The translations under genes were made by a program, and so were the position numbers. The notes below the pieces were generated by a model. It ran no database searches, was not told where the DNA came from, and saw only the letters and a list, made by a program, of their open reading frames with translations. A stretch of 64,000 nt of DNA from Branchiostoma floridae (Eukaryota > Chordata > Leptocardii > Amphioxiformes > Branchiostomatidae): contig NC_049990.1 of NCBI RefSeq assembly GCF_000003815.2, forward strand, positions 9,002,290-9,066,289, in the 5' to 3' direction. Shown here piece by piece: positions 768-59,300 of this stretch (its first letter is position 1; each line of letters begins with the position of its first letter).

Positions 768-1747
768 GAGATTTATTACGTAAGGTGGAATCCGACCGAT
801 CAAAACATTAAGACAAAGTCACCGTTTTGAGCCATTTTTTTTTCAATTTGCCGCTTGAATTTTCCGCCATTCTGTCCACACGGAGTTTTGTGGCCGGAAC
901 TTGTCAGTAGCTAGGTTATACAAAAAAATAAGAGCTTTCGCCCGGCTCGCTTTCGCACTGTTTACCAAAGCAGGAGCAGTGAAAGTCATGAGAATATGTG
1001 AAAATTGATAGCAAAATCAGATTATCAATAATCGAAAACATTTGTAGTGTTGGCACCAAAATTCTACACCTTTAAACGATTTGAACTGATCATTTTACTT
1101 AATCTAAGATAATATGCTCTCTGCTTCACCAAATGTCCCTTTGTTTGATGAATAAATGGGCTAATTGCTGAAGATCCGGGTCAATTGTGGACTCAAAGCA
1201 AGAGATGATTTACGTTGCTAAGACTGCAAATTGAAGAACAGCTATTCACACACACACTACAAACATTGTTATTACGCTTAGCCCCAGATCTCCTCACACC
1301 GACCTATTTTTCTCGGCACTGTTTTTTATTCATAAGAAAAGTTGACAAACATGTATCCAGAAGTTGTTTTTGAGATCAGCACAAGATTTCGCAACATTGC
1401 ATTGGCCAATAGTTATTTGCGATATAAATGAAGAAAAGAAGAGGAACGTTATTTCATGACAATTGTAAAGGATACAATGTGTGGCAACGTACAAACAAAG
1501 CATACAAAATAGTTGAACTATGTGTGTTATAGTATGTATATAGTTGATTTATTTGGACAGCATGCACTCCGGACAGGGGTAACAGAATATTGTTTTTGAT
1601 ATTGGAACTGTTACCTATTTCAAATTCAATGTCAACTGGACAATCTATTTTTTATTCAAAAATATTATCTGCAGAATCAGAACAATTGTTTCTGATGTTG
1701 AGGCCCCGCTCAAGCCGACACCTGTTAGTTTCCCTTTTTTATTTATT

Positions 1748-2030
1748 TTACCAGGAACATACAACTCAGGTCAGACTAGACCTGCTTTTCAGGCAATCCT
1801 GGGCATACATAGAAACAACACAATAACAATAAAGACATATTTCAATAACAACATAGCTGTAAAAATAGCATTACTAAGCAATTAGGTATAAGTCATTTGG
1901 CGCTTAAATGTCCTGAACTTCACCAGACTACGTGATTCGAGAGGCAGCTTGTTCCACAGCTACACGCCGTAGTACTGCAGACTGCCACGAAATGACGTCA
2001 CTCTGACGGGTGGCAACTGTAGTTAACGCA
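1748..2030 (-). mobile_element. 3' end of a CR1/L2-like LINE, decayed
   Basis: On the minus strand a frame around 1887-2000 reads FRGSLQYYGV, an in-frame stop, then LWNKLPLESR and a Phe/Arg/Lys-rich end (FRTFKRQM). This matches the typical C-terminal tail of LINE reverse transcriptases (a 'LWNxLP...' block followed by 'FK..L'). A non-coding tail rich in AATAAA-like runs follows down to about 1748. The stop inside the tail shows that the copy is dead. Family assignment is from pattern memory only. Confidence 0.6.
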
Positions 2031-2155
2031 GTATTTTCTTTTTGAACGTTTCTTAGCTATCGAATGCTGTTGGAAGAGGTTTTTGTTTGTTTGCTTGTTT
2101 GTTTTCGAAAAAGCAGAACTTTATTTCAGTTTTCTTTTTTCGTTTGATTCTCCAG

Positions 2156-21200: not shown

Positions 21201-23851
21201 TCACTCATCAATGGTCGGTACGCTGTATTTCCTTCTGACAGGGCTGGGCGATACGTGCACGCTTCTCTCATGTCCGTAGCGCTTCCCCTTGTACAGTATC
21301 AGTCCGCCCCCGAGAAACAGCAGCATGAACACGATACACAGCACAGGAACGATCACTGCTGCTGTGTTGGTCGTCACAGCCGGGTTGTTGGGAGCTGTCG
21401 AAACAAAATGTGTAGCTTTGCTTAATGAGATGTCAAGTTTAGTATGTTTGCTTTTTTGACTTTGTAAAACTCACAAGCAGATAGTGGATACTATAACTGT
21501 AGGTAGATGTGCAGATATGGCACTAGGTTTTCTATTAGTGTACTATTCCATCTGTAACTTTTTAGAATAACGTACTGTGGCTGTCAGATTTCCTTCCCTT
21601 AACAAACACATGATATGATGTTATTATGATGATTAGTTCATAAGGAAGTCAAAGGCAACATTGCATCTGAAGAGTTATTATCAATATTTTCATATCAATA
21701 GGTCACGATTCAAACATCCATTAAGGATTGATCAATAAAGGTATGAAAGGAAATATGTTTACATGGATATTTGGTTGACTATCAGTGACATTTGTGATTG
21801 AGAGGACACTGTACTTACTGAAACATCCTGGTGTGAAGTCAGAATTTGAGGAGGTGGTCCCAGCAGGGCACGGTGTCTCTGTCCCTGGGGATGATTATAT
21901 ATATAGGGTTAATGACTTGTATCAAGGTGTTTACAGTGACATACGCTTCTTCATATGGTGAGTAGCGCAGTGCGGCTTTACTACTGTAACAACTGAATAT
22001 GGTTTATTCTAGGGGTGGGTACCGGTACAGAAAATTCAGGTCCAGGTCCTGTTCAGGTCCAGAGTATCAGGTCCAGGTTTGGACCTGAACCTGGACCTGA
22101 TTCAGTATTTAAGAACTTGTGACTGGACGATACTCAAACAATGGTCCATTTTGCAACAAGGACACCTGTTTTGTGGTGTATTCGACTCCCCCTGGCGTTT
22201 TAACATCCTACAAGGCTAACTGCCTCTGTACTATTGACTGTAAAATTTGGTAGAAATGACTATAGACTATACTCTACTTTGCTCTTGTTATTTTCCTCGA
22301 CCGGTAAGCCTCAAAACGTGTAAATGCCCTATTATATAATCTGTTCATTTTCCAATAGGTCCAACATCTGGTCTACTGAATTTTTTCAGGTCCGTTTTTT
22401 CTGGACCTGTCCAAAAAGAAAAACCGGTTTTATACCGGTACACCGTACGGTACACCATACCGGTACCCAGCCCTAGTTTTTTCTGTTGATATAGGTCACT
22501 GCATTATTGAACCACGGGCATCAAGGAAAAAGTGGGTCATTAACATTATAATTATATAATAGCTAATTGAAATTGACACTGACATTTTCAAAAAGTTGAG
22601 ACCCACCATTGCTACAAGTGTCAGCAATGCTCAGCTTTCATCTTCATCAGACCATTCTTTTTGACCAGTAGGACTGGAGGCTTTTAATTGGTTCATACAG
22701 CCTAGCTTTATGATAATGTTTAATATATTCAACTTTTGTATATCAACTTGAAGCTGATCTTTAAATGTCAATGGACATCCCAAATAAATCATATCATTCA
22801 AGCAAGAGTTATGAGCACATCCAACTAATATAGAAACTTTACAGGCTCCTTCTTACTTTATCAAACTTAATTGGTAAAATGCATCTGCAAAGTTTTCCCA
22901 ACCTGCACAGTACGCCATGTCGCACCCTGGCGGGCTTGTCAGGTAGTACACATAGAAGCCGCTACAGTTTCTAACCCGGATGTTAACCTGCAAACCACAG
23001 CAATCACTTCCGCTTTGGTCAAGGTGATGTACGCAGACAGTCCGGTCGACTTCCCCATCCTCAACTACCGGATGGGTGCCGTTTAACCACATGGGTTCGT
23101 GGGTACCGCATGCAAATTGCGGAGGGCAGGTGGTTGGTATCTCTCCACCGGCCGCGCTTGTAAAGCGGTACCATCCAGTAGAGAGGCCGAGATCACATAG
23201 TAAAGTAGAGTTCGCGGTAACGTTGTACTGAGTGCTGCGCTTTGGCTCTTCGTCTGCAGTGTAGTCTGTACATGGGTCTGATGAACATGCTGAAAATGGA
23301 AAAAGAAGAAACTCTAAGAAATGTAACATTTGCAAGCAAATACGTGCACATAGTGTTACTTTTACATGGTGTAGCCTGTTTGTATTTGCTAAAAAAATCA
23401 TATATGTATAGTTACCAGCCCCTCCATCTCTGTCCTGCCACTTGTTAACACCAAATATAGTCTGCTGCTTAACCAGTTACTATGGTGACAGGCTCACTGA
23501 CAGCCGCCAGGTCGAGGTCATTGACCTTTTTTTAGAAAATGAAGAAGAAACGGAGAAAAAATAAATTGTTTCGACACAGCAAAATAAGAAACCAGAAAGG
23601 CTAGAAGATTGTATCGGTCTATGATTACAAACTGATTGTATCTTATTCTAAATGTGATATAATGGTGATACAATATCATGTGTTTAGACAGTTATTCCAT
23701 AGATTCCATACTTATTAAGGGTTGACGTCTCTATCACAAAGGCGAATAATGGCCTTAAATTGTAGTACAGCAAATCGATTGCAACATCATACCTACCTTG
23801 TAAACAACAGCAAGCGGCTACCCACCATACAGCACGGTAGAAACTGAACAT
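21201..23851 (-). CDS. D8C-domain type I membrane protein (uromodulin-like ectodomain), complete, 233 aa
   Basis: Exons 23797-23851, 22903-23289, 21819-21884, 21201-21394 give 702 nt, all joined in phase 1. A signal peptide (MFSFYRAVWWVAACCC, 1-18) is followed by one D8C domain (about 19-147). The domain is recognisable by the family signatures LLCDLGLSTGWYRF, PMWLNGTHP, DCCGLQVNIRV and FYVYYLTSPPGCDMAYC, as in uromodulin, GP2 and relatives. A Thr/Ser-rich stalk (148-181), a TM helix (about 182-204) and a 29-residue basic tail ending PTIDE follow. Vertebrate relatives carry EGF and ZP domains; here there is neither. The D8C domain sits in one symmetrical 387-nt exon. A 5' UTR exon probably starts at 24860 (donor CAAG|gtgagt). 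First of three minus-strand single-pass genes. Confidence 0.9.
22010..22475. mobile_element. hAT-type non-autonomous element, 466 bp
   Basis: Ends are TAGGGGTGGGTACCGGTA and the inverted TACCGGTACCCAGCCCTA. The flanks GTTTATTC (22002-22009) and GTTTTTTC (22476-22483) form an 8-bp target duplication with one mismatch, as expected for hAT. Inside are inverted runs of GGTCCAGGT / ACCTGGACC (22040-22105). Inserted in an intron of the D8C gene. Confidence 0.85.
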
Positions 23852-34100: not shown

Positions 34101-37100
34101 GGTGAAATAAACAAAATAATTTTCGAGGTTACTAACTACGATGGCCAATAGTCGAAACTACTAACTTACAATGCCAATAATAGTCGAAACTACTAACTAA
34201 GATAGCAAATAGTCTATCAAGATGAATGACGGTTCGCTTCCTTCCTATATTAGAACACGTGCTGTATTGGTGTGATGCCGGAGACCCATACCACAGGCTG
34301 GAGAAATCGGATCTCCTCGGCAATAATCGTCGGGTTGTCGTTTCGTACCCGAACACTCAGTTCCTAGGCATTGCAGTCGACGACGGCAACATCTACTGGA
34401 CGGCGAAGTATGTGATAACGTTAGCAAGGTGAGTGATATGCTTCCCACCAGACTAAAAAAGCACACACGAGTACAGATTTGCAAAGTAACTTGTTTCGTG
34501 CAAAAAGATGTTGAGAAACCCTTCCGCTAAGACGTCACCTTCTGACATCATCACAGTCGTTTGCGACAAGAACTATCTTCATCATAGAAGTTAAGAAGTT
34601 AAACTGTTCATATAAAACTGTTGATAAGTTTAATATTTTTTTCGCGATATTGTTCTCACCAGAACATCGGAGGCGAACACGGGACTTCGCGTTGCCATAG
34701 GGAGTGGGTACGGTGTACTGAATGGCATTCATCTGCATAAACATGGCGTCTCCACTGACGTTACCAACGGTACTTGTTCTTTTTTAATGTCTTCCGGATC
34801 CATCATGATTAGGAATCTTGCATTGAATGAGACTGGTGAAAACAATAGAGACTATTGTTTTGGCTTTTGCATGGAAACATTAATATTATATACGTTAGTA
34901 GGAAGCAGCTGTAAATTATGTTTATTGAACATCCTTCTTCAGCGAACGTAGCTCATTCACATTTGTACCCAGAAGTTGGTATCGGCCCCCGTCGCGTCTG
35001 AGTGGCAACACCATTGTAAACAGGATAGTAATGCGTTGCTTTTGCATCTTTTAGAATATATGGTATACTGCCTGTCTTAGACGCATAACGCATTACGTAT
35101 ACGTTACGTCCATGTTACACAGCTTGTTCCTCGTACAATGGTGGATGCCACCATCTGTGCCTGGTTCTTCCCGGAGGGAGGACGTGTGCTTGTCGTGACG
35201 GCTGGGTGCTCAGGGACGATGAATCTACCTGCACCCCTCCCGGTGAGTGTAAAGACTGTAAAAAAGTCTCAGTCTGACAAAAATCATTGTCTCACATAAT
35301 CTTTTAGTCTAAATCGTGAGGTAGATTATAGGTTCATTTCTTCACGGTCAATACATAATTTGTAAGATATGTGAAACAACATGTTCTCATAGACGTGCAA
35401 ACTAATGTTGCAGTCTGTTTCAAACTAGCTATAACCTATAGAGACACTTTTGTTATACCTTGCCCTATTTCTCTCTTGCTCGCAGATGTCCGTCTGGTTG
35501 GTGGAAGTAGCCATCACGAGGGGAGGGTAGAAATTCGGCACCACCAGGAATGGAGGACAGTCTGTGACGACAAGTGGAACAACGACAGCGCACGTGTAGT
35601 ATGTCGTCAGTTGGGGTATCCAGATGCCGCGGAGGCAAAAGGAGGGGCCTATTTTGGTCAGGGATCGGGCACTATTGGACTAGACGATGTGCAGTGTACT
35701 GGAAATGAAACAAACTTATTTGAATGCGAACATAGAGGTTGGGGCGTGAGTAACTGTGGGCACCAAGAGGACGCGGGAGTTATTTGCTTGTTGGGTACGT
35801 CAATTGTTCTATTCTTTACTTCTTGATTGTAAAGCATATCTACTGTGAACCTTATACTTCACAATAATGGTCTTTTTTGTTACTCCATTTCATTTTTATA
35901 TCTGAAACATGTCTTCCAAGATGCATTCACTTGAATTCAATCTTTAACCTGCCAACATGGCGGACACTAAATTACGTCATAGTCACGTGACTGTAAATTC
36001 CTACAGATGTTCGTTTGGTGCGAGGAGGCTCTGCGTACCAAGGACGAGTCGAAGTCTTACACGACGGGGTCTGGGGCACGGTTTGCGATCGCGGCTGGGA
36101 CTTGAGAGATGCAGACGTGGTCTGCCGTCACCTGGGGTACCTGGAGGCGGCGACGGCCGTAAAGGCGGCGGCGTTTGGCCAAGGCACGGGGCCGATCTGG
36201 GTGGACGACGCGACCTGCACTGGGTACGAGACCAGCCTGAACAAATGTGGACACGCAGGGTGGAACACGAGCTACTGCCATCACAGTCAGGATGCTGGTG
36301 TCGTCTGTCAGTTGCTAGGTAACGTCTGTCAGTTGCTAGGTAACGTCTGTCAGTTGCTTGGTAACGTCTATCAGTTGCTAGGTAACGTCTATCCGTTGCT
36401 TGGCAACGTCAGTAGTTGCTAGGTAAATGCTTGTCAGTTTCAAGGTACGTCTGTCAGTTTACATTACGCCTGTAGCTTGTGTTGGTTTAGACACAATCAG
36501 TCTAAATTTCTAGACCTCTGTTCCTTTGAATACTGTACTAGGAAAAAGGTGTTGTGAATTAACTTAATTTTGATACCCTTATCGTTAGCTGTTCGTCTTG
36601 TCGACGGGAACAGTCCTAACGAGGGTCGGGTAGAGGTGTTCTACCAGGGCAAATGGGGGACGGTCTGCGACGACGGCTGGGACCTGAAGGATGCCAGCGT
36701 CGTCTGCCGTCGCCTAGGTTACCCGAACGCAACTTCGGCTTTAGACCGGGCTCACTTTGGCGAGGGTTCGGGACCCATCTGGCTGGACGATCTGGTCTGC
36801 GAGGGCGACGAAAGCGGGCTGTCGGAGTGCGGTCACAGTGGACTAGGTGTGGTGAATTGTGGGCACCACGAGGATGCAGGAGTAGTATGTGCGCCACCTA
36901 GCGAATTGACAAGGACGACAGCGGCAACAACTTCCACCACTCCGGATACAACAACTTTCACCATTCCAGGTAAACCAAGTCTTTCCCTTGCTAATGGCCT
37001 GGTATTTAGCCCTATTCACTCTCCGTGCATGGAAGGCCTATATAATTCTGTGACAGGCACCAGGTATCTGAATGCGGATGGATACCAACTACATGTATCT

Positions 37101-38111
37101 TTCTTAGAAAACTTATCATTGTTCCTTCCGTGATTGTTCTGAAGACAATACAGACAAAAATGCTCAGGCTACTCCTGCTGGAAGAACAGTGAGCAAACAA
37201 GCAAGCATTTAAGATGGGACAGTTACGTTTAAAGTTTGTTGACGTTATGATTGTTAATTTTCCTTCTCTTGTTTTTGACAGACCTTTTCACTGGCGGGAC
37301 AAACACAAACGGGGGAAACATAAGCAACTTTAAGACACTTTAAGCCTTTGATGTAACAGGAATTCTTCTATGTTTGCCGCAGCGTCCTCTTGCGGTTTTG
37401 TAAGCATTTCCAAGTAAATCATGGTCATCTTAAATTCCTGCTTGTTTAATAGCATAAACGTTTGCACCTATGGTAATAACATTTGTTTGTTGTCATTTTG
37501 AAATAACTTGCTGTTTATATACGAATTTTTCAGCTCCTAACAAACAAACGGGCATCCTAACGTCGAACACAGCCCCTTTTATCATCGCAGCGGCTCTCTC
37601 TGCGGCCTTTGCACTTGTCGGAGTGGTGACGTTAGTCTTAAGTTTCTGCGTCTTAAGGCGCAGAAAGGCCGTTAAGAAAAGACTTCAACGTGCGATCTCC
37701 AACGACTATCAGAACACCAACCCTGCCTTCTGCATCGACGACAATCCCATTTACTGCACGGCGGGCGAAAACACCTACGATGTAGTCGGAGACCGGCCGA
37801 CTCCACACGAGAAGGCCCGAGACCTGCCGACTCCACACGGCGGGGCCCGAGACCGACCGACTCCGCACGACGGGGCCCGAGACCGGCCGAATCCGCACGA
37901 CGGGACCCGAGACCTACCGAGTCCGCGTGGCAAGACCCGAGACCTACCGACTCCGCACGGAGGGACCAGAGACCTTCCGGTTCCTCACGATGCGGTCCGA
38001 AACCGACGCGTCAGTTCAGCCAAGCAAGAACAGACGGAAGACGAGAAAACTAATGTGTACGTTGACATGAGTGCGAAGTTCAAAGTGTACGAAAATTCGG
38101 TGTCTATCTAA
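31156..38111 (+). CDS. YWTD propeller-EGF-triple SRCR transmembrane receptor, complete, 850 aa
   Basis: Eleven exons: 31156-31198, 32173-32412, 32914-33073, 33638-33765, 34254-34428, 34663-34769, 35123-35242, 35486-35794, 36007-36318, 36589-36969, 37534-38111 (2553 nt). Signal peptide 1-14. Residues 15-284 form an LDLR class B propeller; YWTD-type strands are YIYWTG, IFWTDIG, YMYWTD, VLYWCD and IYWTAK. An LDLR-type EGF domain (285-324, six Cys) packs after it as in LDLR/LRP. Three SRCR domains (325-427, 428-531, 532-635) have six Cys each, hence group A. A Thr-rich stalk, a TM helix (about 673-699) and a 150-residue tail follow, with NPAF (721-724), NPIY (729-732), seven 10-residue repeats (745-814) and YVDM near 832. 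Each SRCR is one phase-1 exon. Likely a scavenger or endocytic receptor; the ligand is unknown. The second SRCR exon ends in a donor-carrying minisatellite. Confidence 0.9.
34131..34212. repeat. Short tandem repeat, about 31 bp x 3
   Basis: 'tactaact..gatggccaatagtcgaaac' recurs three times with small changes, in the intron before the 34254 exon. Confidence 0.7.
36303..36425 (+). repeat. 21-bp minisatellite carrying repeated splice donors
   Basis: Five full units of 21 bp (36303, 36324, 36345, 36366, 36387) and a shortened sixth (36408). The first unit overlaps the end of the second SRCR exon. Each unit contains TTGCTAG|gtaac or TTGCTTG|gtaac, so donors of the same strength recur at 36319, 36340, 36361 and 36382, with a GC version at 36403. 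Because 21 is divisible by 3, every alternative donor keeps the frame and adds seven residues (NVCQLLG-like). The sixth unit breaks the frame and leads to a stop. Confidence 0.9.
37791..38000 (+). repeat. 30-bp coding tandem repeat x 7
   Basis: Seven exact-length units inside the last exon of the YWTD-SRCR gene encode D-(R/L)-P-(T/S/N/V)-P-(H/R)-x-x-x-R. The array is cytoplasmic. Regular length with point differences and no indels implies selection to keep the frame. Confidence 0.95.
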
Positions 38112-44327: not shown

Positions 44328-47300
44328 TCAACATGACGGTACGCTACAATAATCCCAATAGAGTCCGTTCGATTTCTCCTGTATGTAACACCAGGGGGAC
44401 GGGTCACCCACGGGGTTACGGCAGTAGTTGTGGTTCCCGATGCCCCCCTCCCCATTCGGGTAGGTCTGTGTGCTGAACTGGCGGTTGGTGGTGGTACTCC
44501 AGTTCAGGCACTTGTCCCCGTGCATGGTGACGTCCTGGGTACCGCGGTAACCGGTACTGTCTCGCACGGCGCACTTCAGGGTGATTCTTTCTCCTACAGA
44601 TAGTGAGAAGCAGTGATAGTTTATGTTTTTGTGTATACACTTGTATGTACCGGAGATGTATGGTTTGAAAGGTTGGCTAGATGTCACTATAGCTACCTGA
44701 AATGTCGCTAAGAAGCGTCGTAAGCTTACCAGAAATTAGGCAGTGGCTTATCTATTGACCTGCAATTGTTTGGCCTAGAGAAAATATCCGTATTTGGAGC
44801 AGAATGTAGCTTTACTGTTATGGATTTTGGCAACGGACAGGGCTTTCTGACTGAATATGTCTGTTAGGACAAAAACAACGGTTTTGGAAACCACGAATAT
44901 GTCGGACGCCAAATGACGTCATAGTCACGTGACTGCAGACATGTCTACGTTACTACGTCACCCGTACCTCCACACTGCTGCGCTCCACAGTGGCTCCACG
45001 TGACACGTCGTGTGGCCGGGTTGATGTAGTAACACCACGGTTCGGTCTCCACACCGGCAGGGTTTCTGCAGTAGTTGTGGTACCCAATCCCGTATTGCCC
45101 TGCCGTGAATCTCTGAAAAATCATAGGGATAGAAAGAAAGAATGAAAGAAAGATAGAAAAAAAAACGAAAGAAATGAAGAAAGATAGAAAGACAAAACGA
45201 AAGAAAGAAAGTAAAAAGAAATAAAGTGTTAAAAGTAGTAGAGTCCATTCCAAGACACCATGCGGATGTTTGTTGCCATTGTTTAGAATTGATTTTAAAG
45301 TTTTGTAATTATATGTCTAGGATATTTGATACTTCAGAAATATTTTTAACACTGTTTCAACTTTATAAATATTTCCCTGGTCCTGTAAAACTTTGGAAAT
45401 ATTCATGGTGTGGAATTGGATACTTCTAATGGTTTCTAAATAATGATAACAGCATTCTACCATTATTTACCATTTTCTACCATTTTTTGTAAATGGTTCG
45501 GTGGGCTGGGAATATAGCAATTCACACATCCTTGCAAAGTATGGTTGGGTGCCATGCAACAATGGCCCACCACAAAGGATCCACCAGTGCCCAGCAGTGA
45601 AATCTAAAAATATACAGATACAACAATAGGGCTTACTTTTATGGGGGCAATAAACTAATTTTACCATTTGGCCAGGTTTACCATTTTTTGTAAATATTTG
45701 TAAATGTGAAATAATCACAGAGAGGTTTCACAATTATTCTAAGTAAAGATATTTTTGTACAGTTAGTTTCAAAATGTTTCTAAAATATTCAAAGAAATTC
45801 AAATAAATGAGTATTTTCTTAGTCAATTTTTTGAAAATAATTTAATTATTGTGGCTCAGATATTCTTTTATTGAAAATAATTCAGACTAATTATAAATAT
45901 CGCGTAAAACCCCCCATGGTGTCTTGGAATGGACTCTATAGTAGTATAGATAATTACACAAAACTATTAAAAAATTGCGTCTTTTTGAAGGGGTTCTATT
46001 AACTGATAATGAAACTGCATCACTAAGTTTATTTCTAGCTTTCGAAAAGGTTTTGTAAACTTGAGTACTCGTGATAATGACGAAATACTGCATAGGATTG
46101 GCTAATTCATTTTTACTTAAAACATAATTCTATTTCAAGGTGCACAAATCCTGTCAAGAGAAATGTTGCTAAATGAAGTTAACGTTGGTTATAAACGTCG
46201 TAAAACTCACCAAAGTGTTGTAATATTGGTATTTTGCATCGCTCCATTTCAAACACGCCCTGCCGTCCGTAGTGGTCGATTTGAATCCGCGATACGATGA
46301 ACCGTCACCTGTGTAACAGTCTCCTGGCGGCAGAGGCTTCTGGGTAGGCTGTGGAGTTGGCTTGGGTGTTCCAATTGGCCTGACTATCGGTTTCACAGTT
46401 GGCTTGACTGTGGGTTTGGGGGTTGGTTTGACTGTGGGTTTTGGGGTGGGTTTGACAGTGGGTTTCTCTGTAGGCTTGACAGTGGGTTTCTGGGTTGGTT
46501 TTACCGTTTGTTTTTGAGTTGGCTTGGCTGTAGGCTTCTCCGTTGGTTTTTCAGCAGGCTTTTCTGTTGGGCTAACGGTAGGCTTCTGAGTAGTTTGTAC
46601 ATGGACTCCTACAGAAAAAAAATCATCATTATCAGATACACAGCTACACAATGGCCTGAGTACCATCCGGGCTGTTCGCTTATGTGTTCGCTTCTACTAC
46701 CCAGCAGAGAAGCGACTATATATAGCGTACAACAAAAATCGGAGCGAGAAGCGACTGTATATAGTGTATAATAAACGTCGAAGCGAACTGCTATAGGGAT
46801 GGCACCCAGGCTAGCTACACAACATTATAGCTGTCAAAGTGCATAAATTGATATAATTTACGTTTTCTATAATAATTCTAATGAACAAAGTTTTAATGTT
46901 CATCAAAGCAAATACAAAAGCTAAGACAAAAAGTAATGTGTAAAAAAAACGGACAGATAACCAACCAGAACATTGCAGATTGCCGGTTGGTTTAGACCAT
47001 GATCCTCCGGGCAGACATTTTGTAATGGCGACTCCGGTTCCACCTGCTGCGCATGTCAGGACACAGGTCTTCCCGACAGGCTGTTCGCCATAACACTTGG
47101 TCAGCACAGTGGCCGGGACAAAAAATGGAGCACATTTTTCTTCCGGTTCCAACGTGCTGACGGACATTTTAGTCGTTGTGGGAATAAGTGGCGTCGACAA
47201 CCCTAAAAAAGAGGAAAGATTGGGTCTAAAATTCGACGTATCATATTTTAATTGTGCATGAATGACATAAAATGTTGGTGCTCAGAAGGGTCGACTGCTT

Positions 47301-50300
47301 GGTGCACATGTGTGAAAATGTCACAAATGGTTTCGATCATGCACCAAATGATATTCCGTGACTTCCAGTACCTGAGGAAACAAAATACGTGTTAGGGTTT
47401 TGTGTAAGGGCGTGGTCACAAAGGTTATGCGATCGTCGTACGATGGCTAAGTTTTAGGAGGACAAATATGTACGTCTTCTGCAAAGTTTAACGGTCTTGC
47501 TGCACAAAATGCTGTTTTGGATCCATGTCGGTGGTTGGTTCTGTCACGGCTTGCTTGCAAATCCTACGGCATTAAAATCGTACGACAACCGCACGACCTA
47601 TGTGATCGAGCCCTAAGTGGTACGTTGTGCAAAGTGTCTCGACATGCTTTCTCTGTGAGATGCTGGTGGTTGAAAGACATCTACTACAACTTGGAAAACG
47701 TTTGTTAGTGTCACAAAACAACAACTCTCTACAACAACGTATACTTAATGACAGTCAATACTCACAATATTAGCACAGACACATAACTACATACAGTTGG
47801 TTAGTTGAGTCCGTCAATGGGTGTTTAAAATATGAATATACGCGATTATAACTAACTCGGGCAGTCAAGGTTCTCCTTCGGTATGGACCACGATCCGTCC
47901 GGCAGACACTTGGTGATCGACTGTCCATCGCCGGCAGAACACTTCAAAAGGCAGACGGTACCAATCTCGTTCTTGTCCGCATCACACGAAGTCGTAACAT
48001 CAGCTGGTACCACCAAATCTTGGCAGGTCTTTGGTGTCGGCTTGGTGGTCGCTGAGGGTTTCTTTTCGGGCATCTTGGTCGTCATACGAGGCGGTTTTTG
48101 CGTAGTTACCACCGCGGCAGTTGGCTTGTTTGGCGCGGGTGTAGTGAGGGACTGTTTGGGTCGGGTGGCAGGAATGATGGGGTTTTCTGGCTCTGTAAAG
48201 GTATAGGTCTGTTGTCTTACAGTCACAAGGTAAGGTATCATGTCAACTGGGTCGAACTGATTCTAAAACGTCGGTCAACACGGTTTGGTTTGAACCATCT
48301 AAGGGCCTAACTGATTCTAAACGTCGGTCAATACGGTTTGGTTTGGTTTGAATCATCTAAATGTATCAGAATATGTCACTAAGATGTTCTTTTTAATGAT
48401 TCGATGACATTCTGTTTGAATAAAAGCGCCATACATGTTTGCATAAAGGTGTTGTGCATATCATCAGTCATAAGCAAAATAGGTTTGAAGCCAAAAGGTC
48501 CCAAAGAACTTAAGGTATTCCTACATTGTTGTTAGACTGTCACTGATCACGTTCGGATAAAGTCATTATAAGACACACTTGTCGCCGAATCCTACTAAAG
48601 ATTCGGATTTCCTACAGACAAATATCGATCCATGGATAACTTACTTTCACACACAAGCTTCCCTTTCGGTGCAGACCATTTCCCGTCGCTCTGACATGTG
48701 GTTGAGATGATGGTCTCTCCCGGCCCGGAACCCACCAGACACAGGACTCGGCACACCTTGCCGCGGAGCTGAGGCTTCCCGCTCTCACAGTTGGAAATCA
48801 TGACGTCAGCTTGAATATTCAGTGGAGGGCAGGTATCTGAAACAATACAAGTGGTAAATCATGACGTCAACTTAAATATTCAGCGGAGGGCAGGTGTCTG
48901 AAACAATACGATTCGTTTGATATGTAGACTTTATATTCACCCCCGTCAAATGCAGAATATGTCGCTAATATATATAAGGAGAGGTTATATGATGAAGATA
49001 GGTCCACCACTTTATTGGGGCCAAAGCAAAGAATCTATGTGTGGACATTTTCGCAGCCGGGACGGGGGCCGATATATACTTTGTGGCCGATTATTGATGA
49101 CCCATTTCCGGAAGATGGCGCGTGTTAAAAGCAGTGGTTAAGTTCACCCTGAAGAAGCAAGAAATCTACAAGCAAATCAATGAAAAATAATCTATATGTT
49201 ATACATACTCTCTGCCTAATTACTGATGCCCTATTTCCGGAGGATCACGTGATAGAAGCATTTGTTCTGCAGTTAAACCTGAGATAGCTTCCAAGTTTCA
49301 AGGCTCGGTCAAAAAATCGTACTGGTGATGTTTTCTTTCTTGTTTTGGACCAAACATGTACGATGTCTGACCCTTGCCTCATTACCTCAATGAAAAGCGG
49401 CCTGCAGGCCGATTTGAGATTTCATGAATAAACAAAGGTTCAAACAAACAAAAATTCATATCGTCAAAGATGTATATTGTTACGCAACCTTACCGTAGAC
49501 GCAGCCCAGCTCGTCTGAGTTGTCCTTACAGTCGTTGTCCCTGTCGCAGCGGTAGGCGGTGGGGATGCAGGTGCCGTCGGTACACCTGAACTCCGTGGAC
49601 TTGCACTGCGTGGGCTTGGGTGTCGGAGGTCTCGCGGGAACAGCGGGTCTCGCGGGAATGGTGGGCTGTACCGGACTGTACACTTCTGTAGGAACGAGTA
49701 AGTAGACTTTGTATAAGTATATCTTTGTTTAATTCTGAGCCTGGGAGCCATCCTACTCAGCTAGCTTACCGGGGCTTCCATTCTCTCTTTCCAGTTGGTT
49801 CTCGTGGAGCATGACAGCCATGAATTTACGAACTCAGATGGCAACCAGGCCAGAAAAAAAAACAGTTTCTCATTGCCCAATAAATCTTACGTCACACCTC
49901 TATGAATTCACATAAACGTCATTCGAACCTAAAAAATGGTGTACTAAGAAGCAGCTGAAATTTGTGGCAAGGTCTGCCCTTTATATTGGAGTAAATATAC
50001 TGTACTCAGTCTTCATCATTTTGTCACGTTCGTTATTAGCGGCGACTGATTTGGTGTGATGAAAACATATATAACGTTATGGTGTAAATGATAGAAGGTA
50101 CTGTGTTGTACCTCTACACTCCTGTACATCGCAGTATCCCCAGCTGTTGTCCGAGTTGACGTAGCACCACGGCTTCTTCAGGATCCGGCCTGCCGGGTTA
50201 CGGCAGTAGTTGTGGTCACCAAGGCCGTGATAACCGACAGGATAGTTCTGGAGAGGAAAGAAGGAAACTCCGCGTAAATTGGCGAATACAATTGTAATAA

Positions 50301-53300
50301 AAGTCCTAACTCCTTTCACTCGAGCTCGGGAAAGTTATAACCCATTAAAATCCAGGATACAAAATGGCTGTAACGTACAATATATTTTGCACAGATGTTT
50401 GGCCCAAGGGCTATACGAACGGGGATGGGTGCCGCCCTATACACCATATGGTGTGGAGGGTTGTAACGTTAACGCTAACGTTGACGTTAAGTTGCTCTAA
50501 GATGATTGCTATCCGATAAGAGAATAGTAGATCAACTCTAAATCTTTAAAGATTTAGCGCATATCTACTGAAATGATTGCATACATACAAAATATTGATA
50601 TTTTGATATAAATCCGATTAAGTAGATATTGCATTCGTGCAATTTTTGAAGTGCTTTCAGATCGTAATACAGTACGGTAAAATGCCTCCGCCCCTGAGCC
50701 GTCGCCAAAAAAGTATAAATATGGATTACATAAGTGTTGAACTGCCTGTAGGTCGCCTCGCTCCACTTGAGGCACGGTTCACCAGCATCCGTCACCGCCA
50801 CCGTGCCGCGGTAATCCGACCCGTGGCCATGGTAACACATCCGGGCTTGTCTCAGCGACAGGTGGACTACAACAGACGGGGAGGCAAAATTGATCAGATG
50901 AAGCTGAAAGAACTATCTAAACTGATACAAGACATATATGGTTATAGTCTCTTTAAGCCCCTGTCACACTTAGTCAACCATGGCCTTCCGGCCTTCTCCA
51001 GACCATGGTTTGGAGGTAGTCATGAGCAAGGTCGTCTGTGGTTGGGAGTTGGTCGGCGAGGTTGCGTACTAGTCGTCTGATTCGGCCGACGATGAATTTT
51101 GAAAGTCAGAGTCAAGAAAGCGACATTCTGCTTAGATGTAATCAGAGGAGTGAACTGGAGCTAGCATAGCATAGATTACTCCCCATCCCGCGGCGACCTT
51201 GGTTGGGGAGTGGTTGGGACAAATGGCGAGATCCTCAATGTGTGACAGGGGCTTTGCTAGGATGGTATTCATGCCTGCCTTTACTCTGGTATTTACAATG
51301 AATCATGATACAAATACAAATATTCGCGGCATTGGATAGCAGTACACCCATGTAAGGTGTTATTAAACTATATTTCTGTTAAAATCACAGAATCCACTAA
51401 TCATTAAAGAAGTGGGACTTTTCATCAGCCACTGCCTCCAAAGAAGAAGTCAAACCACCCAGTAAAGAAGTAGAAGCATGTACATAGATAGCTGACGTGT
51501 GTGTATTTAGAATAGACACTTGTTACTTTTCACTGTCTGTATCATTGCAATTAGCCTACGGGCATGGATTTGCAAATAAATATATATTATTAAAGAAGCA
51601 AGTCTTTCACACTTGTGTAGTACGACTCAAGGTACCTTCTTTCAGTGTTCTCTCTGGACAGGAGAAGACGGCTGAGTAGTCGTGGATGTCGTTACACATA
51701 CAGGAGCAGTTGTAGGCGACAAAGGCTTCTTCGGGACAGTCCATCGCAGGACACTTATCTAAGCACAAAAAGCAGATCACCATATAATTTTTCAGTAATA
51801 CATTGTTTAGATGCTCGGAAATAGTGGAATGAGGTTTTCAATGTGGGAACAATACTGTGTTATGAAACGCATAGTCAGAGGCGAAGTGCCATAATCATTT
51901 TAGCACAGTGGAAAGGTAGCAACAAAGCAGCGCCATTAAAATATCGCAAAGATATTGAGATTTACAGTACTAGTATGTAGTAGTAGTAGACTGGTTTATG
52001 TCTGTACTGACCGCCACATCCGTAGAGAAGGTTGACAGTCTTAATGTCGTAGAAACTGAGCGCCTGTTTGTGTCCGATGAAGTACTGATACTTGGTGTCC
52101 TTTGTCACGATGGTCTGGAGATCTGCCCTCACTGTCCACTCCTAATGGATTGTAACACATCATCATGAACTTTGCAACATATCATCAACTGGACGTTTGT
52201 CCAAGAAACTACCTGCTACGGTTTCAATACGATGGTAACAGTTTTATTTTTAAAAAAGTAATGATTAGCGTCCGTGAATAGTTCAACTAGGCTGGTACAT
52301 CACAGGTGGAGTTTTTTGTTCACAATCAAAGATTATACTGCCTAGCTGAAGTTCCAATGACCTTCCTCATCAGGTCAGTTCTGATAGGTTATATACAATT
52401 CCAAACGTAGGTATGAACACAGTCACGTTTGGGACCGCATTCTTCGCAATGCAGCAGCGACACCTAGCTGCAGTGCCCAGCATTGGCCTACAAGTACACA
52501 AGTATGATGCAAGAATACGTATTTCCATTCGTTTATTTTCATGGTGGTGAGAGAAGACGTGATTGACCACAGAGTGCACTTACCGTGTTGTAGTAATGCA
52601 TGATTGACATGTAGTCATATGGGATGTTATACAAGTTGATATCGCTGGAAGACATCTTCTGGAAGTTATATTCCTCTCCTGGCTGGAACATGGAAGCGTA
52701 AAGTTTGACAACATCTAAGACAACATAAATCATTAACATAGTCCAGGGTGTAATTTTACCAAAAAAAGTTCTTATTAAACGTTGTTGTTATCTGTTGTTT
52801 AAAAACATGAATTGATCACATTATTTGTACATTGGTAGCCGGTACCAGAGCGCTTTTCATCACCATTTCCTCCAGGTTTTCAGATAAACTTGACATCAGA
52901 TCATGTAACAATAGTTGACGAGTACGCAGACATCAACAAATAGAAACAAGATGGCGCCTGCATGAAATCAAATTCGTGACATGGCAGCGTCCTGGTACGC
53001 CGGCGAAAACAATACAGTTTTGACATTCTTAAGCTTACTTCAATACGTAGAATACAATTATCTGTCTAGCTACCTTCGGTAGCCGATATACACTTCTAGG
53101 CCGGCTACACAGCTTTTGATACTATCTTATGCTACTGTAGGATCTGATTGGAGATTATGTCTTACCCGGATGTTGTTGACCAGAATGTCCACAAACTCGT
53201 CCCGGTCCGGCCGGCTGTGCTCATGGTACAGACCGAGCACGTGACCCAGCTCGTGAAGAATCACTCCTACCTGAGAAAGAGGTGACAAGAAAAATTGTAA

Positions 53301-56300
53301 AAAGAACACTATTGGATATTCTGCTAACTGCTATCTATTGTAAAGCAGAAATAATACTCAGCACAATTATTTTATAATGCCTGATGTCAACATTCGATCA
53401 AAACAAACTTTATCCTTTGTCTTAATTTATAGTCATAAAACAAATTAATAATCAAAACGTTAAAAATCTTAACAGAAACATGACGTACCGGGTTTGATGT
53501 GGCGAAAAGACAGGCGTCGTTGATTGAAACGACTTGTTGGTCCCTTTCAAGCAGTCTTCCGACATCTGATAGACACCTGTAGATATAAATGTTTGTTTTA
53601 AGACCTGGTGACATTCGCCATACGATCATCGTACGAACATCGCGCGATCTTCGCACGACCGCAAGCAGATGACATTCATGGGATATTCGTGTACGTGTCG
53701 TACAAAGCTCAGTGGTCTTGTTTCGGAAATGTTGTCTTTTACCCTTGGCGGTTGGTTCTGTCCGACAGCCTGCTTTAAAAACCTACGACGTCAAAGTCGC
53801 ACGGCATCCTACGATTGTCACCGCACTATAACTGGTAGTTATGTATATCGTCTTTTTTATTGTATAAGTCTAGGAGTTCTGGGACGACGGTTCGACTCTG
53901 CAATATGGAGAATGTCAAAACAGGGTACATTGAAAACCGTCAGTAGTCGATATGTATGTACCTTGGGGAACAGATAAACAGTAAACATCGTTTACAACAG
54001 ATCTTACTACTAACCCGATTCCTTTGTAGAAGATGATGTGATCGTGGTGCCCCAGGTAGCTAGCCAGTTTACGTGAGTATGGTTTGAACCTGGCGCAGCT
54101 GTGCTGGTGCCACTTCTCCATGGCTTCAGCGATGTACGACCGGTCACGGTGAGCTGCAAAAGGACGGACTTCATTCAGTGCTTTTATTTCCCTCGCCTCA
54201 AAGGCTATGTTTTCAGTGCCTCGTATTTGTGGATGTGTTTATGGATAATTCAAGTAGGTGTTTTTTTAACCTCCTTGGATAATTTTTTAAGCCATAGATG
54301 GACCTTTTTGATATTTCGTACGTTGGTGGGTGTAAAAAAAGTCTTGGTGGACCACCTGGTGGATTCCTTTGGTACTGCAATAGAACATTTGGTTTTCATA
54401 TCTCGTGTTCTGGACATCCTATGGTTATGACCTTGTAATGATAAATCCAATGCAGTAACGGTATACTGGCTACACGTTTAATCAACAGGCAACAACATAC
54501 ATCGGTAGTGGCGTATCAGCGTTGCTGACTTTATTTGAAGAAAGTTTTTTAGCAGAAAAAAACTTAAGATTGTCCTTTGTACATTCCATTCGCGTGGGAA
54601 ACTCCCACAGTAAAGGATATTTCAAATCCCACAAGGTCCCGTAATACTTAAGCTCGATAGGAACGAATTCCTTGGAATTCCTTAGATCTCTCTTATTTTG
54701 AAGACTTCAAACTGTCGTACTTACATAGGCTGTCCCCCATGATGTAAGGAATGGTACCGCCCGGCCACCTTAGCCGCAGGTCCCGGATGGCTTTCCGTTT
54801 CGGTCTTTTGAAGGTCGGTTCCGATCCCAGCTGTGTGATTGGACAATTCGTTAATCATGTTTATCGGTGAAGAGGAATGTAGAAAGAGGTATGCAGCCGG
54901 AGACAAGTGGACGTACTTAGCAGTGCCAAAGGCCAAGAACATAATTCAACGTCAGAGAGGGATTTTCATCCATTACATTGGCATTGTAACTAATTCTAAG
55001 TCTAAGTATAAGCACAGAGTATAAAACACGTGATACGTCGATGAAGGTTAGACATCAAGGTAATAAGATACGCCAAAAATCAGTTACTCCAGCAACCAAA
55101 ATTGTATCCAGTTGCTTGAGTCGCTTTTTGGCGTACAAAATCCGTGTCATAAATAGCCGACCATTTTCTCCCGACCTTAAACAGACCATGGTTGGGAGTA
55201 GGTCTTGAGCAACTTGAAGGTCATCTATGGTTGGGAGATGGTCCCTAGTCTTTAAAAGTCGGCTGCGCAAGCATATCATTTATTATGAAAAAAACAAAGT
55301 CCCAGGAGCTTTATCCTTGATTCACTCAGAGAAGCGAAATTGGAATAGGACGGATTCCATGTTGCTTCCAACCCAGCGCCAACAACCTTGAGTTGTTGTG
55401 GGAGCAAAGTGATGGGAAGGCCCTGAATATGTGACAGGGGCTTAACGGTTTTGCATGGGATGGATGTAGATTGGCTATCACAATAGGTTCATGATTTGAC
55501 TTGGTTGATGTTTGCATTTATTAATATTTATTACAGCCGGACGACCAATTTCATATTACAAAAGTACATCTGACAATACTAGTAAGGAATTCCAAAGATC
55601 GCCATTGCTACGGAAAAATATCATCAAAACTGATTATACCACTGTCGATAGACCAAAAAAGTCATTTCTCGATCAACTACAGATAACCAATAAGAGCTGA
55701 TGATGATGATGATGAGGACTTACCCTTAGAAAGTCTCCGTCTCCAGTGTCATTGTCAAGGTCATAGTCGTAGTCGTACTCATACCCGAACGTGTCGTTGT
55801 ACGGAGACGTCCCGTTTTTTATCATCTCCTCCACCACCAGCGCCTGCTCCGGCTCTAGCACCATGTTGATCTTCACTAGCACCAAGGGCTTGCGTCGCCA
55901 CCTTCTCCTGGGGTTTCCCGCCTTTTGGGATAGGAAGGGGAGATCTACTGAGTATACTGTTAACTATAAACGTTACAATAACATTCGTTATAGGCCATGG
56001 TGAGATTTTGATGGTGTAAAGTTTTCAAGCAAGCTGTGACAGAACCAACGACAGAAAGACAGCCTTTACAGGGCAGCCGAACTTAGCCTGATTAAATCTC
56101 GCTTACAGCAGCCCGCCAAACATCCGGCCGGCCTCCTCTGTGACGGTGAGGAGGGGCCAGTTACCGCCCTGGACAGCAAAGTTTGTGCTGAACCGTTTTG
56201 GATGGGTAGGGTGGAGTATTAGCCTGCCTATCATCCTCTGTAGTAACCGCTGGCTCAATCTTTTCTCTGGCTAAGTTTCGTATACTACTCCATGGAGTCC

Positions 56301-59300
56301 ATGAGTCCATGGAGTAGTATACGAAAAGTATGATATAAAAGACACCGCAAGCTACACAAGACGTAAAGAGAATAGTCGTGGGTACTTTTTGTGTATATTT
56401 TTATTGATACATTTCTATTTTTCGTTGCCACAAATAGCCCGGCCGGGCCCCGGTTTGGAAATGTGACGTTAACCTAAATCGAGTAATAGATACTCTCCAA
56501 GCAGAGGTTTGGCTCCGGCTGTGTTATACATGATGTCCAGCTGGCACAGAGAGGAAGTGCAGAAATTCCAGAGGCTCCCTGCCCGGCCGGCCCCCCCACC
56601 TCACCCGTCCATCTGTGCGTACTAATTAACAAGCCTGGGTGATTACACCCGATGATATACACAGCCTGTCGCCTCTTATCTATGCCTGTAGGAAACGTCT
56701 TTCCCTCATTTCATCGGATCGGCGACTAGAGCTCAATTTAGGGTCATCTGAAATGGACGGAAAGCCGCAAATTGGTGAACTTTTCCTCGTTATCTCGTGG
56801 CACGACATTCCAAAATATTCCATATGGTGGTCAAAGTGGAGACAAATAATACCACATCTGTGGTAGTAAATTGATACGAATGTTTAGATTGTGGTAAATC
56901 AACGCGTTAATTTATAGTTTTTTTAATACTTGATAATATGAATGTTGCAAGGCAACAAGATAAAAAATAACTAATATCATATCATCATCATCATCCAGGC
57001 GTGAAAGGCGAATCAAAAGGCGAATGAACATCAATTATTGTGGTTTACCCTTCTTGTCAGAGTCCCTTTCTTAGTTGTTCAGATCTGCAATGCCAAAAAC
57101 CTCCTTTGTATTCCAAGGAGTTTCAAGGTAAACATGACAGAAGAAGCAGCACATCATCTGCACACATATTCTAACTAACGTTACTCAAAATCAAATGAAA
57201 ACAATTGAAATCGCGACGTAAAATGATCAGTGTTAAAAACTGCAAAGATCTATTTGACTTTAAATTCAGATCAAGGACCTTGTTCAGATTTAAATGTAAT
57301 GAATGCTTCACACATATTTGAGAGATCTTGGAAGGGCCTGCATGTGCGAGGGTGGCTCTTTGCTAAACTCAGAAAAAGAGAGACTAATCTCCAGACAGAT
57401 CTACCGGTGGCATAAGGAGTTAAGCTGGCCAAGGAGAGTTCTGGACTAGACCCTTATGCCTAAACTCCTTATGCCACTGGTAGATCTGCCTGGAGATTAG
57501 AGCGGCTACGTACTGCCCATGGCTTTAGGGGGCGATCACACGATTGAGTGTGTTTGAGTTCCATATTGTCATAGAGAAATCTGTTTTGAGAAATTTGTTG
57601 ATCTAGCGAAAGTTAGCCTGATTAAATCTCGCTTATAGCAGCCCGCCAAACATCCGCCGGCCCTCTTTTACGCGGGGAGGGGCCAGTTACAGCCCTGGAC
57701 AGCGGAGTTTGTGTTACACAGACTAAGCGAAAGTTTGTGGGGAAAATTGTATTTTTCTCCGACTTTTACCAATTTACATGGAATTTAAACGTTAACGCCT
57801 GATAATGCCCTACCTTGACTCGAACATGTTGTTACCTACATACAAACGTTATAACTGTCCATACACTGAAACAGCCCGCATAACTGGGAGTAATTGGGCG
57901 GCTGGCATCCTTCCGAGCTGAGGACATCTCCAGTTAATGAAAACCTTACACATTTTGGAGCGGAAAAGGTAAATTGAACGGTTGACTGACCGTATGCTGA
58001 CATGGCATTGCGTGAAAAGAATAACAGCATGTCTCAAGGGCGATGTGGTTAACTTGAAGTACAATTGACATAAGGGCCCAGTCGCAAAAGTCGTATGATC
58101 GTCATGAGATCGCAAAATATAGGCTTGGGGGGGGGGGGGGGGCAAGGCGTTCGCCTGAGATCCTTGGCGGTTGGTTCTGACTTCTGTCAGTGCTTGAAAA
58201 TTGTACACCAGAATTTATTTTAACACGTATGACAGACGGTATGTAATTTTGTCCATCGATGGTTGTAGATCCTTTTTATCTAATTTTACAATAGGATAAT
58301 AATAACTGTCTTCCACGAGTTTTACTTCAAAGAATTTATCTTATAAACCTTCCAAATGCTTGGATCGAACTTTATCATAACATTTTTTAAACGATCGGGT
58401 TTTCTGACAATGCAATGCACTTCGCCCCAGAAAGTGACTGTCAGCGTCGCTGGTCAGAAAACATTACGATTTTCTACCCCCAATATCTGCTTGGAGATTA
58501 ACGGGTCCATTTTTCTTTGCCTGCGAAGCGCTAGGGTCCGGTCACATAAATTTCTTCGATCGTTCGAAATCAAAATCGTATGACGGCCGGTCTTCCATAG
58601 TGATCGCGTAATTTAACCCATAACGACGGTTAAACGCCAAATCTTCAAACTCGAACTTTATCAAAATACTTCTTGTCATAATATCATATTACTTTCACGT
58701 CTTTTATTGGTTCTAACGACATTTTGTGAACAGGGCGAAAAATCACTTCAGTATGGTTTTCATTAGGCGTTCAAAACAAGTCTGTTCGCCTAACCAAGGA
58801 CGGCTATGTTTACAAACGCCTTGATGATAATTACACTAAATGGTATGTCTAGTTATATTGAGAATAAAACAATCAGAAAGAAACCGTTCTCAATATCATC
58901 AGACATTCAATTATTAACATCCAATTTTATACAGTATCTTCCATAACCAAAATTATGAATTCGGAACAGCTGTCTCCTAGCTTCAACCATCATCATATGT
59001 TTATTTATTTTTTCAGGATCTTTCGATTCAACGCTAAATCGATAATTTATGCATATTCCATAATTCATTTCAACAATATTCCAAAACAGAGAACAGCATT
59101 GCAAATTACTGCTCTAGCGACACGAAAGAACTACATCCTAGAAACTAAGAAAGTGTGTAAATCTTCTGATTAATGAGAAAGAAATTAGTAGTTTAAGTAG
59201 TTGTAATTTACGTACTTACCTCAGTCACAGTAGCTATACAAGCGACAATAATCAGTACAAGAACGGCAGCCTTGCGTACGGTGAGTTGGAACGAGTCCAT
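44328..59300 (-). CDS. Astacin-kringle-LDLa-CCP multidomain secreted metalloprotease, complete, 1028 aa
   Basis: Eighteen exons from ATG 59300 to stop 44328: 59220-59300, 55724-55921, 54725-54830, 54015-54153, 53489-53576, 53166-53270, 52584-52682, 52012-52141, 51636-51758, 50730-50845, 50112-50247, 49494-49685, 48645-48836, 47857-48192, 46966-47202, 46211-46608, 44968-45112, 44328-44593 (3087 nt). Signal peptide 1-27; acidic Asp/Tyr-rich propeptide; furin-like KRPKRK before the astacin domain (about 106-315). The zinc site is [19 protein letters not shown] (His210, 214, 220; Glu211), the Met-turn SIMHY (265-269), and four Cys are at astacin positions, so it should be active. Then a six-Cys segment (316-356), kringle 1 (357-440), LDLa (466-502), CCP-like 505-568, 625-680 and 690-759 with six Cys each (selectin type), Pro/Thr and Lys-Pro-Thr linkers, kringles 2 (855-940) and 3 (945-1028). 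Domain borders are phase-1. Confidence 0.9.
45126..45230. repeat. GAAA-rich microsatellite
   Basis: Interrupted GAAA/GATA runs just upstream of the kringle-2 second-half exon (intronic on the minus strand, where they form a pyrimidine tract). Confidence 0.85.
45241..45936. mobile_element. Tc1/mariner-type non-autonomous element, 696 bp, TA duplicated
   Basis: Perfect 22-bp inverted ends (GAGTCCATTCCAAGACACC... at 45241-45262, complement at 45915-45936). TA lies directly outside on both sides (45239-45240, 45937-45938). The interior is AT-rich with 'taccattttttgtaaat' repeats and no transposase. In an intron of the astacin gene. Confidence 0.88.
46350..46600 (-). repeat. Coding Lys-Pro-Thr repeat (linker before kringle 2)
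   Basis: Within the exon 46211-46608, about 25 imperfect KPT / xKPTV units (from [10 protein letters not shown] to [10 protein letters not shown]) form a basic, proline-rich linker of roughly 85 residues. Repeats are degenerate at DNA level (ggtttgacagtggg-like units). Confidence 0.85.
46686..46800. repeat. Local direct duplication ('gagaagcgact...tatata')
   Basis: 'agagaagcgactatatatagcgta' and 'gagaagcgactgtatatagtgta' are direct copies 55 bp apart, in an intron of the astacin gene. Confidence 0.6.
47405..47616. mobile_element. Foldback MITE, 'gatcgtcgtacgat' family
   Basis: The left end 'gggcgtggtcacaaaggt' plus 'gcgatcgtcgtacgat' is inverted at the right as 'atcgtacgacaaccgc' plus 'acctatgtgatcgagccc'. 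Intronic. Confidence 0.65.
48795..48910 (-). repeat. Duplication of a CCP exon start with its splice acceptor
   Basis: 48795-48849 and 48856-48910 are 55-bp direct copies, 61 bp apart. On the minus strand the inner copy contains the true acceptor and first codons of the 48645-48836 exon. The outer copy repeats the acceptor and nine codons but then reads TAA, so its use would truncate the protein. Confidence 0.85.
50955..51254. mobile_element. TIR element, 'AGCCCCTGTCACAC' family, copy 1
   Basis: Left AAGCCCCTGTCACAC and right GTGTGACAGGGGCTT are perfect inverted ends. The interior has 'accatggtttggaggtag' and 'gaccttggttggggagtgg' blocks. A second copy ends at 55442. Intronic in the astacin gene. 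Confidence 0.75.
53090..53160. mobile_element. MITE end fragment, 'TCTCCAAGCAGATC' family
   Basis: 'ggccggctacacagcttttgatactatcttatgctactgtaggatctgattggagatta' matches the copies at 13878 and 21063. Adjoins the donor of the zinc-site exon. Confidence 0.6.
53609..53830. mobile_element. Foldback repeat, 'cgtacgat' family
   Basis: 'ggtgacattcgccatacgatcatcgtacga' pairs with 'gtcgcacggcatcctacgattgtcacc' at the other side. Intron of the astacin gene. Confidence 0.55.
54245..54440 (+). repeat. CCTCCATGAAA-family interspersed repeat fragment
   Basis: Starts 'tttaacctccttgg' and ends with the 'gttctggacatcctatggttatgacctt' block of the family. Confidence 0.55.
55140..55442. mobile_element. TIR element, 'AGCCCCTGTCACA' family, copy 2
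   Basis: The right end 'tgtgacaggggctt' and the internal 'agaccatggttgggagtagg' and 'tgggaagg' blocks match the copy at 50955-51254. The left end is worn ('ccgtgtcataaatag'). Confidence 0.55.
56062..56200. repeat. Dispersed direct repeat, copy 1 (copy 2 at 57600-57715)
   Basis: 'cttagcctgattaaatctcgctta', 'cagcagcccgccaaacatcc' and 'ggggccagttac.gccctggacag' blocks recur in the same order and orientation 1.54 kb downstream, in the same intron of the astacin gene. Confidence 0.8.
56276..56326. repeat. Perfect 21-bp palindrome arms, 9-nt loop
   Basis: 56276-56296 (TTTCGTATACTACTCCATGG...) and 56306-56326 are exact complements. It lies in the large first or second intron of the astacin gene and could extrude as a cruciform. 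Confidence 0.9.
57384..57500. mobile_element. Foldback MITE, 'TCTCCAAGCAGATC' family, near-complete
   Basis: Arms of about 40 bp (CTAATCTCCAGACAGATC... and ...GATCTGCCTGGAGATTAG) with 2-3 mismatches and a loop of about 35 nt. Confidence 0.75.
57600..57715. repeat. Dispersed direct repeat, copy 2
   Basis: Counterpart of 56062-56200. Confidence 0.8.
58078..58245. repeat. 'cgtatgatcgtc' repeat copy with poly-G tract
   Basis: 'cccagtcgcaaaagtcgtatgatcgtc' resembles the foldback family at 47405. A run of about 22 G lies at 58121-58142. Another end-like piece (ggtcacataaatttcttcgatcg) is at 58535. Confidence 0.45.

Follow-up and report, generated by a model that had tools for sequence, protein, structure and literature searches.

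A probable secreted astacin metalloprotease with kringle, LDLa and CCP-like modules in Branchiostoma floridae, and its kringle-bearing relatives

The window analyzed here, a whole stretch of 64,000 nucleotides of Branchiostoma floridae DNA (C12:9002290-9066289), carries on its minus strand, from 59300 to 44328, what is probably one gene, coding for a modular zinc endopeptidase of the astacin family (M12A) that would be secreted and would belong to a small group of kringle-bearing astacins. Relatives of this gene elsewhere in the genome form a series of active-looking, dead, and protease-free members, and this series is the most interesting part of the finding.

The 18 exons of the gene were rebuilt with GT-AG at every intron and zero in-frame stops (Table 1). 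They encode 1028 aa plus a stop codon, in agreement with the original prediction of 18 exons closing to 1029 codons. The order in the product is signal peptide, propeptide, RPKR, astacin, linker, kringle 1, LDLa, CCP-like modules 1 to 3, kringle 2, and kringle 3, with the CCP-like modules carried on Pro/Thr stalks. The length given corresponds to the exon-2 acceptor at 55921, which has a better polypyrimidine tract than the acceptor at 55870; use of the latter gives 1011 aa, a difference of 17 codons, and the residue numbers used here are those of the 1011-aa form. The gene model is least secure in exon 2 and the propeptide. From exon 9 onward the introns at module borders are in phase 1. A phase-0 intron divides kringle 1, another divides kringle 2 at the corresponding position, and the whole of kringle 3 is encoded by a single exon. 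The exon-15 donor, GTTGGT, is weak and counts against our preferred explanation. A 61-bp tandem duplication (92% match; 48795-48909) spans the acceptor of exon 13, which encodes CCP-like module 1.

Table 1. Positions of the exons and motifs of the window gene (window coordinates) and of related loci in the genome
Feature	Location	Strand	Remarks
Exon 1: start codon, signal peptide	59220..59300	-	Hydrophobic stretch 3.76; GTAAGT donor
Exon 2: propeptide	55724..55921	-	Nine in-frame acceptors; longest 55963, 55921, 55888, 55870
Exon 3: propeptide end, catalytic domain start	54725..54830	-	
RPKR, putative furin-type basic site	54795..54806	-	
Exon 4: astacin	54015..54153	-	
Exon 5: astacin, C.S.VGR segment	53489..53576	-	
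Exon 6: astacin active-site exon	53166..53270	-	
Zinc site, HEXXHXXGXXHE	53220..53255	-	
Exon 7: astacin, Met-turn SIMHY	52584..52682	-	Met-turn at 52593-52607
Exon 8: astacin domain end	52012..52141	-	Pfam Astacin aa 97-297
Exon 9: Cys-rich linker module	51636..51758	-	No Pfam match; similar exon in C4A, C4B, C12b, C12c
Exon 10: kringle 1, first half	50730..50845	-	Pfam
Exon 11: kringle 1, second half	50112..50247	-	Pfam
Exon 12: Pro-rich spacer and LDLa	49494..49685	-	Pfam
Exon 13: CCP-like module 1	48645..48836	-	Sushi E 0.071, sub-threshold
Exon 14: Pro/Thr stalk and CCP-like module 2	47857..48192	-	Sushi E 0.011; AF2 pLDDT 83.8, predicted CCP fold
Exon 15: stalk and CCP-like module 3	46966..47202	-	Sushi E 0.081
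Exon 16: KPT-repeat stalk and kringle 2, first half	46211..46608	-	Pfam
Exon 17: kringle 2, second half	44968..45112	-	Pfam
Exon 18: whole kringle 3, stop codon	44328..44593	-	Pfam
C4A: astacin-linker-kringle	C4:8.9634-8.9666 Mb	+	
C4B: astacin-linker-kringle	C4:8.9729-8.9694 Mb	-	
C12c: astacin-linker-kringle	C12:12.294-12.298 Mb	+	Zinc site intact
C12b (L012, L013): astacin-linker-kringle	C12:7.22-7.21 Mb	-	Dead zinc site
L001: uninterrupted 715-aa ORF	C2:22.47 Mb, L001 109-2256	-	Astacin, CUB, PAN, and Kringle over cut-offs
Astacin, C.C.CP segment, at least three kringles	C19:12.72 Mb		
L028: astacin; about 1.7 kb on, single exon with two ShK and kringle	C1:3.70 Mb; exon at 3174-3845	+	
L023: astacin exon, split kringle halves	C9:23.005-23.007 Mb; kringle 1596-2633	+	Halves 1.5-2.5 kb downstream, same strand
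L035 (C12d): likely signal exon, kringle, antistasin-like segment, two CCP-like modules on Pro/Thr stalks, kringle, stop	C12:12.3070-12.3111 Mb		Antistasin-like by our own reading

The window also holds a neighboring gene with three SRCR domains (35359-37130, plus strand; Pfam 115-118 bits), followed by tandem repeats at 37789-37990, a uromodulin-like D8C domain (22856-23476, minus strand; 66.7 bits), and a partial rhodopsin-type receptor (4451-5125, plus strand; 29.7 bits, just below the cut-off of 30.5).

The catalytic domain matched Pfam PF01400 Astacin with 197.4 bits (cut-off 22.5) over positions 1-188 of the 189 in the profile. The zinc-site pattern, the Met-turn, and the four astacin Cys, reported as intact in the original prediction, are all present; Cys 131, 159, 180, and 297 are those of the two conserved disulphides, with the pairing predicted. 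The closest PDB match of the domain is of the tolloid/BMP1 type (E 1e-37 for tolloid-like 1). At E 1 or better, Pfam found no CUB, MAM, TRAF/MATH, or trypsin domain in the window protein. Where this gene has RPKR, its paralogues C4A, C4B, and C12b keep R.KR. An aspartate switch, FxGD, is given as shared by animal astacins in a review (PMC9848320). A search for F.GD in the three minus-strand frames of 59300-54700 found none, although an intron-split motif would escape such a search and the gene model is at its weakest in these propeptide exons; zymogen latency is therefore not accounted for in the mechanism proposed below.

Three kringles and an LDLa had been predicted, and both stood: Pfam Kringle gave 166.8 bits in three stretches and Ldl_recept_a 48.4 bits. 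The earlier module list left out the Cys-rich linker of exon 9, which lies between the astacin domain and kringle 1 and is common to the paralogues. Exon 9 matched no Pfam family at E 1 or better, and the paralogue linkers matched none over the cut-off; an assignment as ShK was dropped for want of a supporting Pfam match in any of them. At the linker position, a C.C.CP or C.C.CP-like segment is present in L026 and L001, and the sole Pfam match in that region is EGF_C8A_B_C6 (E 0.0057, sub-threshold). An EGF-like origin of the linker is thus possible, and we keep it unnamed because the only match at that place is sub-threshold.

The three modules described originally as selectin-type CCP are better called CCP-like. 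With Pfam PF00084 Sushi they reached 14.0, 16.6, and 13.8 bits against a cut-off of 20.7 (E values in Table 1), and phmmer with all three against PDB gave zero matches. A three-row profile, run against PDB, had 18 of its 19 matches in CCP proteins (best E 0.014), and the AF2 model of module 2 has a predicted CCP fold; the model of module 1 (pLDDT 59.6) was left unused. The CCP-like character is thus carried by the profile and by the fold of module 2, whereas "selectin-type" is a tentative label that goes back to the six Cys per module.

To find relatives, the whole genome was searched (513,431,437 bases in 431 contigs). Eighty exon matches were grouped into 34 astacin places, of which 22 were checked for a kringle (L006 with a flank of only about 1.5 kb) and 12 were left out. 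Astacin and kringle occurred together at nine of the 22. Kringles are very common in this genome (150 scored among 528 candidates), so nearness alone is no proof of a single gene at the C1, C9, and C19 places.

The order astacin-linker-kringle recurs at four further loci (C4A, C4B, C12c, and C12b), and zinc sites are intact in the window gene, C4A, C4B, and C12c. C12b has HLLGSAMGLYPE at the zinc site and SIMQW at the Met-turn, with the catalytic Glu, two zinc His, and the Tyr lost. Despite its dead site, it still matches the Astacin profile with 141.4 bits, and its exons as read are open; against the window gene, pN is 0.372 and pS 0.690 over 194 astacin codons. Past its kringle come a CCP-like module (Sushi E 0.001, 19.9 bits, just below the cut-off) and a further kringle start, in the same order as in the window gene, and then an assembly gap. 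In L001 the kringle scored 36.1 bits (cut-off 34.3), the listed ORF opens with TTG, and we read in it an EGF-like stretch that has no Pfam match. Since astacin and kringle lie there in one uninterrupted ORF, splicing cannot explain their pairing. An assembly or model artefact was ruled out because of the order at the four further loci and this single uninterrupted ORF, and the same two observations bear out the original claim that astacin, kringles, LDLa, and CCP modules belong to one protease gene. Two other places were recorded: L037 (879-5221, plus strand; C3:32.46 Mb), where LDLa and kringle stretches alternate without an astacin match, and L018 (7833-8618, minus strand; C14:2.117 Mb), with about five tandem copies of an astacin active-site stretch (ELMHTIGFLHEQSRADRDKH and alike).

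Astacin trees were built without L003 (91 aa) and L024 (85 aa), which fall below a 100-aa limit, and without L022, L023, L025, and the second astacin of L020. In a 19-row tree, a 99/97 branch split the five linker genes together with L026 and L001 from the 12 others, and the five linker genes did not form one group by themselves. In a 17-row tree, from which L001 and L018 were left out as long rows, six kringle-bearing astacins lay on one side of a 98/95 branch, found in 98% of 200 bootstrap trees, this group of six having been defined after sight of the first tree. On the other side were 11 rows including BMP1 and tolloid-like 1 from PDB and the kringle-linked L028, which groups with astacins whose search for a kringle came up empty. 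A clade of the five linker genes alone was neither shown nor rejected with this 17-row set (p-AU 0.088). With L028 placed there and L001 on a long branch (3.12), we make no claim of a single origin of all kringle astacins. Between C4A and C4B, dN is well under dS in the astacin (0.175/1.738, about 0.10), linker (0.231/1.115, about 0.21), and kringle (0.140/1.023, about 0.14) regions; other pairs are uninformative on selection because their dS is high or saturated.

That the window gene forms one chain, from astacin through kringle 3, is likely. It is improbable that the model fuses two adjacent genes, one for an astacin-linker protease and, behind it, one that encodes kringle/LDLa/CCP/kringle and no protease, a situation that may hold at C12:12.29-12.31 Mb. 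There, the last exon of C12c runs into an in-frame stop, and about 9.8 kb downstream lies L035, which is 3.3 Mb from the window gene and resembles its C-terminal half; this protease-free relative suggests that such a half may exist alone. The likely signal exon of L035 (score 2.82) has a GTCTGT donor read by eye, and no astacin exon was found between C12c and L035. The tail of the last C12c exon contains a phase-1 GTAAGA, so C12c and L035 may themselves be one gene. Within the window gene, intron 9 has one weak signal-like ORF at 51351 (2.69 compared with 3.76 for exon 1), followed by GTAAAT and GTAAAG in the phase 1 needed by exon 10, so an internal start there is possible. Against a division into two genes, the linker is 790 bp from kringle 1, the length of intron 9, the phases match, and introns 8, 9, and 10 have no AATAAA or ATTAAA hexamer. 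The order is likewise continuous in C12b, where the stretch from linker to kringle contains no signal-like ORF, and none was found in introns 8, 11, and 12 of the window gene. The polyA hexamers present in introns 1-4, 7, and 11-16 count against our preferred explanation. The scan for signal exons applied a rough hydrophobicity rule, and since its donor pattern missed the GTCTGT of L035, little weight attaches to a "no donor" outcome.

From the features of the sequence we infer that the gene yields one transcript and that its product is secreted, activated by furin, active, and docked through its module array. The product would be secreted as a zymogen, and a furin-like convertase would cut at RPKR. 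The new N-terminus would then come to lie inside the catalytic domain, and the C-terminal kringle/LDLa/CCP array, on its Pro/Thr stalks, would keep the active enzyme where it acts. What the array binds may be considered in the light of plasminogen, in which the first Asp of the RNPD motif belongs to the lysine site. A fibrin- or lysine-directed protease of the plasminogen kind, with a metalloprotease in place of trypsin, would agree with the kringle fold, with plasminogen as the best PDB match of kringle 3, and with RNPD being retained in the kringle of C12b and in two kringles of L026. All five aligned plasminogen kringles read RNPD, whereas window kringles 1 to 3 read RNPA, RNPA, and RNPV, and C4A, C4B, and C12c have RNPY, RNPY, and RNPP. 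Although this is single-residue evidence, the absence of the first Asp from the three window kringles means that docking of the fibrin type is not indicated, and we regard such a protease as very improbable. The original description of the modules as plasminogen-like thus applies to their fold but not to this Asp, which is replaced by Ala, Ala, and Val. It is also unlikely that the product is a binding or adhesive protein whose array attaches to surfaces (microbes or matrix) and whose protease activity is incidental. The dead C12b, with its astacin profile kept and its exons open, and the existence of L035, a relative with no detected astacin, agree with such a role; the window copy, however, keeps its catalytic residues, and astacin dN is well under dS between C4A and C4B.

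In the family of kringle proteases, plasminogen is an active member and HGF a dead-protease member. We put forward tentatively, as a possibility with the odds somewhat against it, that one kringle-astacin stock gave rise to enzymes with intact sites (window gene, C4A, C4B, and C12c), to C12b as a retained pseudo-protease, and to L035 as a protease-free kringle-CCP protein, which would make a metalloprotease counterpart of the plasminogen-HGF series.

Tolloids carry a furin-type activation site, and tolloid/BMP1 (M12A; PDB 3edi and 3edg) shares such a site with the window gene and has the catalytic domain closest to it in PDB; unlike tolloid/BMP1, which lies across the 98/95 branch of the 17-row tree, the window gene has no CUB. 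The plasminogen/HGF family likewise joins a protease to a kringle array, with trypsin where the window gene has an astacin metalloprotease and with the first Asp of RNPD that the window kringles lack. We know of no kringles and no astacin domain in pappalysin-1. Lancelet SRCR-kringle-LDLRA-PAN-trypsin proteases, some of them with a non-functional trypsin domain, are listed in Table 2 of PMC6337849; as given there, they resemble the window gene in joining kringle and LDLa to a protease and differ from it in being serine proteases with SRCR and PAN where the window gene has CCP-like modules.

The original prediction knew of no described astacin with kringles. Novelty of that kind is not supported, as a 2023 review names KRING and SUSHI among the domains that occur with astacins (PMC9848320, Fig. 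1 legend); as far as that legend allows comparison, these are the same kinds of partner domain as in the window gene, and the word LDLa does not occur in the accessible text of the review. The window architecture is not described in the accessible portions of PMC9848320, PMC12549020, PMC10855680, PMC11788884, PMC6626399, PMC3927612, and PMC6337849. The astacin-kringle pairing is thus already known, and the full architecture with the active/dead/protease-free series appears to be undescribed in the open-licence PMC literature, where an absence is a weak sign.

Kringles paired with a second protease fold are therefore a repeated architecture and no one-off. Active-looking, dead, and protease-free members in one genome offer a natural set in which to ask how kringle arrays function once the enzyme is lost, and the finding bears on the use of clotting-type modules outside the vertebrate clotting system. 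If the series derives from one stock, the pseudo-protease C12b may serve as a ligand, a decoy, or a regulator, and two unrelated catalytic folds would have followed the same course from enzyme to signaling or binding protein.
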